Below are positions 8,522 through 11,742 of a stretch of 35,405 bases of DNA, piece after piece; positions within the stretch are counted from its first letter, which is position 1; every line of letters starts with the position of its first letter. The position numbers and the translations under genes are program-made. The DNA is from Chloroflexota bacterium. GTDB lineage: Bacteria; Chloroflexota; Dehalococcoidia; CAUJGQ01. The notes beneath the pieces are model-generated. The model ran no database searches. It saw only the letters and a list, made by a program, of their open reading frames with translations, and was not told the DNA's origin. The DNA lies in assembly GCA_963170165.1 (NCBI GenBank), contig CAUJGQ010000052.1, forward strand, positions 1 through 35,405, in the 5' to 3' direction.

Positions 8522-10348
8522 TTAGAACAGCGCAGGCGCGCGGGCGGTAGTCCGCCGTGGCCGCGACCTGGGCGGCGGGGTGGCCGCAACCTCGACGGGC
8601 CGCTGAAGCCGGTCCGCAGGCTCGGAGACGGCGGACTCGCGGGGCAAGACGGCCGGCTCGAACAGCGATTCGTGCGCCAACCGGCAAGCAGGGAGGGTAG
8701 CGAGCAGCGCCAGCAACGCTTCATCCGTTTCCGGCAGGGGCGACACTCCCAGTGCCCTCACCCCGGCAAGCGTGAGCCGCGCCCCCTCGCCGGCCTCCTG
8801 CCAATGCACGGAGAGGGCAGTGCTCAGCCGGTTCCGCAGTGCCGTGCTACACAACCCCGCGCCGGGGATATCCTGCCAGCCGGGCGGCGGCGGTGCAGCA
8901 GCTAGCGCCTGGGCCACCTCGCCATCGGTATAGCACCCAAGGAGCGGACCCAACTCGCGCAGCGCCAGCCAGCCTGCCGAGGCGGCACAGGCGGCACGCA
9001 GCCGCTCTGCGCCGCCGGCCGTGCGCGCCGCGAGCGCGTCAAAGCGGGCAGCGGCATCCAGCACCGGCTGGGGGGCCATTGCCTCCCGATACGCGACCAG
9101 CGGAAAGGGTAGATCCGCAAACGCGGGCAGTGAGCCATCGGGCACCGCGATGATCAACCGGGTATCCGCCGGCAGCTGCGCCAGCGCCGCGCGCTTCTTC
9201 GCCAGGTAGCCGGGCGTCCAGAAACCTGCGATCTCCAGGTAGACACGCAGCCCGCCACGATCCAGCGCGAAGTCTGGGATGATCACCCGCCGCCCAGCCA
9301 GCAACGGCGCCGGCTCGCGCACCAGCCGCCAGCCCGCCGCCCGTCCTTGTCGCTGCAGCGCAGCAAAGGCCGCCGCCAACGCTTCCTCCACCTGCGAGTC
9401 GTACGCTGGGCTGTCGATGTCACGGTCCCGGGCCGTCAGCGCCAGGCCGGGGACATCGAGCAGCACACGGGTCAGCAGCAACCGGTAGGGGCGCTCGTTC
9501 ACATGCAGGTGCGCGGCGGCGGTGTCATGCGTGCCCAGCGCCCGCAACAGCCGCAGCGCCACCAGCGCCAGCCGCGGCCCTGTGCTGGCTGGCGCAGCGC
9601 TTACCGCATCGGGACCAGCCAGCGTCAGACGCAGCACGTCCGTCTCCAGTCCGGCCCGCTCGATGTCGGCGTACACCCCCAGCCGCCGGCACCAGGCATA
9701 CAGCCGCCGAATCGTGCCCCCCGCAGGTTGGTGCAGCGTGAACACGATCCGCTCGCTCTGGCGCAACACCGTGGCCAGCGCCGCGCGATTGTAGCGAGCG
9801 AGCACTTCCACCACCGACGGGGCCGTCTCCGGCGGCGCGAGCAGCGCCTCCTCTTCAGCGTCCAGCCGCAGCGCCGCATCGAGGGCGGGACCGTCTTCGC
9901 CGGCCAGTCCGAGCGACCGTGCCAGCCGCGCCAGCGCCTCATCGCGCCGGCCGGACGGCACGTAACCCCCGTCGTGCTGATTCACCTGGTCGAACAGGCG
10001 CAAACGCAGTCCAGAGGGCGTGTCAATACCGGCGTCTGTGAGATGGCGGGCGCGCTCCTCGCCCAGTTCCTCGGCCAGTGTCCGCGCCGTCCAGGCGTAG
10101 AAGTCGAAGCAGCCGGCGGCCAGCCCGTGTCCCAACCGCCGTTCACCGGCAATGGCCACCACCACATCCGGGTCGTATTCGGCGCGGCGGCGGCCCGCCA
10201 GCCCGGCGAGGTAGTCGCGCACCCCCGCGGCGGCGGCCGTGGCGCGCCGGTCGTGTTCGGTCAGGAACATGACAGAGAAGATCGGCGGCCCGCCACCGGG
10301 GTCACGCCGGGCCCGCCAGCGTATGTCTGCCATGCTCAACGTGGCCAT
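8522..10348 (-). CDS. Bax1-type (DUF790) nuclease, XPB partner
   Basis: A 608-residue protein. In archaea Bax1 binds the XPB helicase and cuts DNA bubble structures at the ss/ds junction, in a nucleotide-excision-repair-like reaction. The N-terminus (residues 7-130) has the family start (ADIRWRARR) and a DYLAGLAGRRRAEYD segment. The central part corresponds to the family's helical region. The nuclease core is of PD-(D/E)xK type: E321/E322 in YDSQVEEALA, D359 in VIIPDF, E372 in VYLEIAGFWTPGYLAKK, and K384/K385. The tail after about residue 430 is Ala/Pro-rich and variable. The ATG shares one base with the stop of the XPB gene (TGATG), so translation is coupled; a second in-frame ATG 15 bases on is an alternative start. 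Confidence 0.85.
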   Translation of the reverse strand: MATLSMADIRWRARRDPGGGPPIFSVMFLTEHDRRATAAAAGVRDYLAGLAGRRRAEYDPDVVVAIAGERRLGHGLAAGCFDFYAWTARTLAEELGEERARHLTDAGIDTPSGLRLRLFDQVNQHDGGYVPSGRRDEALARLARSLGLAGEDGPALDAALRLDAEEEALLAPPETAPSVVEVLARYNRAALATVLRQSERIVFTLHQPAGGTIRRLYAWCRRLGVYADIERAGLETDVLRLTLAGPDAVSAAPASTGPRLALVALRLLRALGTHDTAAAHLHVNERPYRLLLTRVLLDVPGLALTARDRDIDSPAYDSQVEEALAAAFAALQRQGRAAGWRLVREPAPLLAGRRVIIPDFALDRGGLRVYLEIAGFWTPGYLAKKRAALAQLPADTRLIIAVPDGSLPAFADLPFPLVAYREAMAPQPVLDAAARFDALAARTAGGAERLRAACAASAGWLALRELGPLLGCYTDGEVAQALAAAPPPPGWQDIPGAGLCSTALRNRLSTALSVHWQEAGEGARLTLAGVRALGVSPLPETDEALLALLATLPACRLAHESLFEPAVLPRESAVSEPADRLQRPVEVAATPPPRSRPRRTTARAPALF

Positions 10349-11730
10349 CAGCGCACACCTACCGGCTGACGGCGGCGGCTGGCGACACGCGGCTCGGCGG
10401 TGTCACGCGTCACCAGCTCATACAGCACCGCCTCGCCCGCCTTGGGCCGGAGGATGCGGCCGAGGCGCTGGATGTACTCGCGACGCGTACCGGAGCCGCT
10501 GAGCACAATCGCCACCGAGGCATCGGGCACGTCCACGCCTTCGTTCAGCACGCGGCCGGTAGCGAGCACGGTGTACGCGCCGGCGCGGAAGCGCTCCAGC
10601 ACGGCGCGACGCTCTGCGGGAGGAGTGCTGTGGACAATCACGGGCAGGCACAGCCGCCGCCCCAGCTCTTCGACGGCGGCATTGTACTCGGAGAAGATCA
10701 GCACCCGCTCACCCCGGTGCCGCTCAAGCAGCTGCTCGACCGTCTCCAGCTTGCTGCCCGCGCCGAAGGCGATGCGCCGCGCCTCCTGATGGGCGCGCAG
10801 GGCGGCATACGCCATCGGGTCGCCGCCGCTACGGCGCAGCACCAACCGCTCGAAGTCCTCGGCGGTGCGCACCTGGAGACCGCGCGCCGCCAGGTAGCCG
10901 CGATAGGTGCGCACATGCTCGGTGTAGGCGGCACGCTCGGCATCAGACAGCGCCACCCGCAGCCGCCGCTCGCGGTAGGGGGCGATGTAGCCGGTGCGCG
11001 CCAGTTCTTCCGGCTCGCGGCGGAACACCTCCGGCCCCAGCAGCACATCCAGCGCGGCATGACCGCCGTCGGCCCGCTCTGGGGTAGCGCTCAGCCCCAG
11101 CCGGTACGGGGCGACTGCCGCCTCGGCGATACGCCGGTAGCCGGCAGCGGGGAGATGATGCGCCTCATCCGCCACCAGCAGGCCGAAGTGCGTGAGCAGC
11201 CGGGGATGACGGGATGCGGACTCGTAGGTGATCACCGTTAGCGGGCGCAGCTCGCGCTCGCCGCCGCCGACCACGCCCACCATCTCCGGCGGTGCGCCCA
11301 ACCCCTCAGCCAGCGCCGCCCGCCACTGAGCAAGCAGATCGAGCGTGGGCACGAGCACCACGGTCCACAGCCGCAGCGCGTTGATGGCCATCACGGCGAC
11401 GTGCGTCTTACCGGCGCCGGTGGGCAGCACGACAACGCCCCGGCCGCCGGCGGACTGCCACGCCGCCAGCGCCTCCCGCTGGTAAGGACGGGGCGCACGG
11501 CTGACGGTGGGGAGAAACGGCAGCACCGGCCGCGGGTCGAAGTGCAGCCGGGCCGCCGGCCCCAGCGCCCGTTCTATCTCCGGCAGCAGCAGCGGCAGCG
11601 CCCGCCACCCGCCCAGGCGCGGATCGTGCCGCAGGCCGGCGCCGGCGGGCAGTGCACCCAGCGCCTCCGGCGGATGGGGGACGAGCAACAGGTCGTTGCC
11701 ACGCAGATGGATGTCGACAACCGGCGTCAC
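10348..11730 (-). CDS. XPB/Rad25-type DNA repair helicase
   Basis: A 460-residue SF2 translocase of the archaeal XPB type. After a short damage-recognition-like N-terminus (1-70) come PRPYQREAL (80-88), Walker A PTGAGKT (103-109), DEAH (188-191) and LSATPERADG (213-222). The last aligns with the XPB RED element, which here reads RAD. The thumb region follows (about 260-330), with AEDFERLVLRRSGGD as in archaeal XPB, and then helicase domain 2 ending in GSGTRREYIQRLGRILRPK. The C-terminus is Arg-rich. The start is GTG 11730: TACACT is 6 bases upstream and there is no Shine-Dalgarno, so the mRNA is probably leaderless. It is the first gene of a two-gene operon with the Bax1 nuclease. Confidence 0.92.
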   Translation of the reverse strand: MTPVVDIHLRGNDLLLVPHPPEALGALPAGAGLRHDPRLGGWRALPLLLPEIERALGPAARLHFDPRPVLPFLPTVSRAPRPYQREALAAWQSAGGRGVVVLPTGAGKTHVAVMAINALRLWTVVLVPTLDLLAQWRAALAEGLGAPPEMVGVVGGGERELRPLTVITYESASRHPRLLTHFGLLVADEAHHLPAAGYRRIAEAAVAPYRLGLSATPERADGGHAALDVLLGPEVFRREPEELARTGYIAPYRERRLRVALSDAERAAYTEHVRTYRGYLAARGLQVRTAEDFERLVLRRSGGDPMAYAALRAHQEARRIAFGAGSKLETVEQLLERHRGERVLIFSEYNAAVEELGRRLCLPVIVHSTPPAERRAVLERFRAGAYTVLATGRVLNEGVDVPDASVAIVLSGSGTRREYIQRLGRILRPKAGEAVLYELVTRDTAEPRVASRRRQPVGVR

Positions 11731-11736
11731 ATCGCC

Positions 11737-11742
11737 AGTGTA
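11737..11742 (-). promoter_or_regulatory. -10 TACACT of the XPB-Bax1 operon, leaderless arrangement
   Basis: On the minus strand TACACT is followed by exactly six bases (GGCGAT) and then the GTG start. Transcription normally begins about 7 bases after the -10, which puts the first nucleotide at the start codon. The wider TACACTGG also occurs in the secA promoter (27861) and the GNAT promoter (32373). Confidence 0.5.

Follow-up and report, generated by a model that had tools for sequence, protein, structure and literature searches.

An intact XPB-Bax1 helicase-nuclease gene pair from a Chloroflexota branch of the family

The window, a 35,405-nucleotide stretch of DNA from a Chloroflexota bacterium, carries on its minus strand (positions 8522-11730) an XPB-type helicase gene followed by a gene for a Bax1/DUF790 nuclease (Table 1). 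The two form an operon, as proposed in a preliminary description of this DNA: the stop codon of the first gene and the start codon of the second share one base, and the same -1 overlap occurs in 10 of 26 archaeal pairs. The signatures on which that description based its assignment to XPB and Bax1, namely, DEAHH, AEDFERLV, and REYIQRLGRILRP in the helicase and IPDF and EIAGFWTP in Bax1, were all re-found. Bax1 proteins of Chloroflexota come in three forms, here called A (about 410 to 490 residues), B (608 to 778 residues, including the window protein), and C (438 to 577 residues). No third component conserved beside the pair was seen by inspection of the loci.

Table 1. Features of the helicase-nuclease locus and positions of related loci
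Feature	Position	Strand	Detail
TACACT, exactly 6 bases before GTG	11737..11742	-	sequence
XPB-type SF2 helicase	10348..11730	-	460 aa, GTG start
N-terminal DRD-like region, residues 1-80	11491..11730	-	inside Foldseek alignment to 6p4f_C
DEAHH Walker B box, residues 188-192	11155..11169	-	sequence
RED-position motif, R219-A220-D221 (RAD)	11068..11076	-	sequence
Thumb (ThM), residues about 263-322, wedge Phe293 (= StXPB F278)	10765..10944	-	sequence and model
TGATG, helicase stop/Bax1 start overlap of one base	10346..10350	-	read directly
Bax1/DUF790 nuclease	8522..10348	-	608 aa, ATG start
Bax1 NTD, residues 1-196, D163/E165 (= AfBax1 D133/E135)	9761..10348	-	alignment mapping and model
Bax1 central Cas2/ferredoxin-like domain, residues 197-296	9461..9760	-	model
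Bax1 nuclease domain, residues 305-437: D317, S318, E321/E322, D359, E372, W377, K385	9038..9436	-	alignment and model
Bax1 C-terminal domain, residues 445-571, winged-helix-like	8636..9016	-	model
Form-C loci beside XPB-like helicases	L077-L084, L087, L088		PD-(D/E)XK residues lost
Kinase-like ORF	L050:10907-13492	+	by eye
Kinase-like ORF	L053:11109-13325	+	by eye
Kinase-like ORF	L089:5254-7479	-	by eye

The helicase matched the ResIII, Helicase_C, and ERCC3_RAD25_C profiles and contains the SF2 core (Walker A, DEAH, and motif VI). Its best PDB matches were the XPB proteins of A. fulgidus and S. tokodaii (E values of 4e-102 and 1e-94), and several of these chains come from XPB-Bax1 complexes. 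Archaeal XPB also gave the top structural hits: an AlphaFold2 model built with a homologue alignment (mean pLDDT of 91.2) was fitted by Foldseek to the DNA-bound archaeal chain 6p4f_C with a TM score (TMq) of 0.86 and an rmsd of 2.5 Å over 448 columns, so that the fit extends over the N-terminal region, the two RecA domains, and the thumb. The thumb is full-length, with about 62 residues, as in archaea, and model helices at residues 263-283, 290-302, and 305-322; the position of StXPB W298 is taken by His314. A profile of archaeal DRDs did not match the window helicase, and the same profile misses most form-B DRDs, while a form-B DRD profile, built with the window sequence included, matched 7 of 9 Planctomycetota and 7 of 21 archaeal DRDs. 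The preliminary description had singled out the RED element, which reads RAD here. The reading is correct, but it is no peculiarity of this pair: R219 and D221 are invariant across a 38-sequence helicase alignment, and variation is confined to the residue between them. Helicases of this branch typically carry RAD (9/16 form-B helicases, compared to 4/10 form-C and 2/21 archaeal ones), and StXPB itself carries RDD (PMC7672443).

The 608-residue product of the second gene matched PF05626 (DUF790) with an E value of 3e-35 and 122 bits against a gathering score of 28.8, and its PDB matches were Bax1 chains only (E values of 2e-14 with the single sequence and 5e-43 with an alignment profile). In its model, obtained in the same way as that of the helicase (mean pLDDT of 89.7), residues 1-437 fit all solved Bax1 structures with Z scores of 21 to 23 and rmsd values of 4.7 to 5.7 over 362 to 373 aligned residues, a range that covers the four comparisons fitting as one body; 6p4o_B, which can be aligned only if its domains are allowed to move, is not part of it. 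The NTD-CRD-NUS fold is thus present, with a Z score of 23.3 to 6p4f_B (rmsd of 5.0 over 365 residues). The catalytic residues of AfBax1, E275, D305, and E318 (PMC7293015), map to E322 (whose neighbour E321 is more conserved), D359, and E372 of the window protein. D163, E321, D359, E372, W377, and K385 are kept in 21/21 form-B Bax1 proteins, and the active-site residues to which the preliminary description referred are intact. The C-terminal domain, compared as part of the full-length model, found its best matches in SelB winged helices (Z scores of 9.1 and 8.4); the better of these, with an rmsd of 4.1 over 122 aligned residues, is barely above chance likeness. In archaeal Bax1 this domain is the least conserved part and is missing in many proteins (PMC7293015).

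Among 400 Chloroflexota genomes, 57 contain PF05626. When GTDB genomes were scanned, at least 558 relatives came up, and among the matches listed are Archaea, Ktedonobacteria, Planctomycetota, and one cyanobacterium; the presence of DUF790 in cyanobacteria had been pointed out as early as 2005. The pair is also present on two Deinococcus plasmids, annotated there as "DEAD/DEAH box helicase" and "DUF790 family protein," and related pairs are found on haloarchaeal plasmids. The searches of viral contigs and phages returned no Bax1 relative, and a viral origin was rejected on these grounds. A parallel helicase-nuclease arrangement was observed in an Idiomarinaceae phage (L188:1036-4267), in which an SF2 helicase is flanked by a Cas4-domain exonuclease and a VRR-nuclease.

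We placed both proteins in quick trees with SH-aLRT support, using SF2 proteins of phages and plasmids as the root for the helicases and midpoint rooting alone for Bax1. Mycobacterial-type XPB branches first among the helicases, and the Bax1-partnered helicases, the window protein among them, form one clade (support of 97). Phage and plasmid helicases fall outside it, so that grouping with phage or restriction-type SF2 enzymes, the outcome that the preliminary description had named as fatal to its proposal, was not found, and a restriction or phage-type helicase was rejected. The clade splits into a Chloroflexota-only group of forms B and C (95) and a group of archaea, form A, Planctomycetota, and Deinococcus (95); the Bax1 tree contains the matching split at a support of 100. 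The window helicase lies within form B (91) as an early long branch, and in the Bax1 tree its partner could not be assigned a firm place among forms B and C. The pair lies in a Chloroflexota-only branch that adjoins the archaeal clade and is not nested within it. The notion of an archaeal-type system as an oddity in a bacterium is not supported: the Chloroflexota clade and the group with the archaea are sisters, and the pair occurs in other bacterial phyla. The two genes have evolved in parallel, with their distance matrices correlated at r values of 0.87 overall and 0.97 within form B (0/2,000 shuffles). This would be expected if both genes travel together, and common ancestry also contributes. 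One Dnd-system helicase joins Planctomycetota inside the Bax1-partnered clade on a branch of length 2.95, which we tentatively read as long-branch attraction. A form-B pair from a metagenome-assembled genome labelled Proteobacteria (L115:6467-10115) groups among Chloroflexota and is probably misbinned.

The preliminary description called for a search of the genome for uvrABC. All three genes are present and full-length, and the pair thus coexists with the standard pathway and would supplement UvrABC; its use as a stand-in for missing nucleotide excision repair was rejected. A uvrC match was found in 30/30 Bax1-positive Chloroflexota searched, 28 of them over the cutoff. The window genome holds no further strong XPB-family match, a mycobacterial-type XPB included. 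A partial second UvrA-like sequence (G000:C148:97-1905) lies in the same genome. Synteny with one genome of the same family was limited to ruvB. The GC content of the contig (0.687, against 0.678 for the sampled genome) and its Chloroflexota-like ruvB make contamination unlikely.

The window pair is genuine and complete, a bacterial XPB-Bax1 whose family is known but whose Chloroflexota branch has been little described. We put at roughly 0.78 the probability of the fuller reading, that this form-B pair acts as a heterodimer in secondary repair of bubbles or forks beside UvrABC. The mechanism is well supported by homology with the archaeal complex, from which we infer complex formation, polarity, and cutting. 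The Bax1 N-terminal domain would dock onto the thumb/HD2 half of XPB; XPB would travel along duplex DNA and split the junction of single- and double-stranded DNA with its thumb, Phe293 acting as the wedge; and the PD-(D/E)XK domain of Bax1 would cut the displaced 5' tail beside the junction. The complex could thereby process bubbles or forks as a secondary repair activity alongside UvrABC. Several observations count against this reading. Besides the residues at which the helicase departs from StXPB (the middle of the RED motif and the W298 equivalent), both proteins miss the NCBIfam cutoffs: the window Bax1 scores 64 and 59 with the Sulfolobus- and Archaeoglobus-type equivalogs, against a cutoff of 500 bits, and the helicase scores 232 with the mycobacterial-type XPB model (NF045503), against 610 bits. 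In archaea, deletion phenotypes are absent or marginal, and no effect of deleting bax1 or xpb2 was observed in Sulfolobus islandicus (PMC4471258); to call XPB-Bax1 an excision unit, as the preliminary description did, goes beyond what has been proved even in archaea. In the literature searched, we found no biochemical study of a bacterial XPB-Bax1 pair.

Another combination of an SF2 helicase with a nuclease would be an anti-phage or anti-plasmid system, in which case the pair would not serve repair. The helicase does match PADLOC PbeA at 173 bits, and the patchy distribution and plasmid-borne relatives in Deinococcus and haloarchaea would suit such a role. However, archaeal XPB is matched far better (345 bits), the window Bax1 has no PADLOC match at all, the viral contigs and phages searched lack a Bax1 relative, and the genes around the pair have a housekeeping appearance (ruvB, which was tested, and OsmC- and CsbD-like genes, judged by eye). 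We regard defence as unlikely.

A separate question, which concerns expression only and is compatible with the repair reading, is whether the pair is a stand-alone leaderless operon with TACACT as its own promoter. The preliminary description based this claim on the six-base spacing to the GTG, which is correct, and a clear Shine-Dalgarno word is absent there. The spacing, however, is within chance. In 279 genes (431 kb) of the window genome, TANNNT at spacer 6 was found at 5 of 1,172 candidate starts, the same as at neighbouring spacers and without a peak; these starts were uncurated, which would dilute but hardly erase a true peak. Shine-Dalgarno-like words in the same 431 kb peaked strongly at spacers 5 to 9. 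No sigma-70-like pair was found, and an OsmC-like gene on the same strand ends 65 bp upstream, making read-through possible. A dedicated leaderless promoter is accordingly improbable.

Recent horizontal import from archaea, as an oddity of one genome, could be suggested by the absence of DUF790 from all 59 relatives sampled, which share the family or class of the window genome (in nearly every case the class), and by the length of the terminal branch that leads to the window Bax1 (1.28), but it is very improbable given the splits in both trees, which leave transfer between Chloroflexota classes possible, and the higher identity of the helicase to form-B (51 to 57%) than to archaeal helicases (about 38 to 46%).

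With the archaeal XPB-Bax1 systems of known structure (A. fulgidus 6p66; S. tokodaii 6p4f, 6p4o, and 6p4w; P. furiosus Bax1 8gy8), the window pair shares gene order, often the one-base overlap, the thumb-bearing helicase fold, the multidomain Bax1, and all nuclease residues. It differs in its separate clade, in RAD where these have RED or RDD, in the His at the W298 position, in the winged-helix-like C-terminal domain of Bax1, and in a host with complete uvrABC. In the Deinococcus plasmid, Planctomycetota, and form-A pairs, the helicase likewise adjoins Bax1, and the catalytic residues are intact in form-A and Planctomycetota Bax1. In contrast to the window protein, Bax1 in these three groups is short (mostly about 405 to 430 residues) and lacks the C-terminal domain, and their helicases carry a Trp as thumb wedge, where the window has Phe; in the trees, these pairs fall on the archaeal side. 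Mycobacterial-type XPB shares the XPB core and the RED motif position but has 22 residues in the thumb region instead of about 62, a long and different N terminus, and a clade of its own. A 2012 mycobacterial study stated that such an XPB complex was at that time unidentified in bacteria, and the XPB-Bax1 papers in the literature searched treat the system as archaeal.

Form C departs from this pattern. E372, W377, and K385 are gone from 10/10 of its Bax1 proteins and D359 from 5, and D163 is kept in all 10. The accompanying helicases keep their motor motifs, and a recognizable DRD was found in 0/10 with the archaeal and form-B profiles, a result that depends on the form-B profile, since the archaeal one misses most form-B DRDs. 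Position 165, the partner of D163, is nonacidic in form A, Planctomycetota, and the cyanobacterium, and the D133A/E135A substitution in AfBax1 weakened XPB binding tenfold (PMC7293015). Because the Asp is nearly universal and the second acid is not, a docking role for D163 appears no less likely than a second nuclease site. We tentatively suggest, as a possibility that may well prove wrong, that XPB-Bax1 is old in Chloroflexota independently of archaea and has split there into a nuclease-active form and a sister without the nuclease site and the DRD that retains the helicase motor and the N-terminal Asp of Bax1. If so, the indispensable job of Bax1 would be to clamp and control the helicase, cutting would be dispensable, and the proposed N-terminal nuclease site would really be an XPB-binding residue. 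Nuclease-dead form C provides a natural experiment on the function of Bax1 and on whether it has one nuclease site or two.

Since the bacterial clade is substantial, it also provides cultivated hosts, such as Thermogemmatispora and Ktedonobacter, in which the in vivo role of the pair could be studied beside a working UvrABC. Only in some Ktedonobacteria, members of these two genera, does a kinase-like open reading frame, recognized by eye, lie on the opposite strand between the XPB and Bax1 genes.
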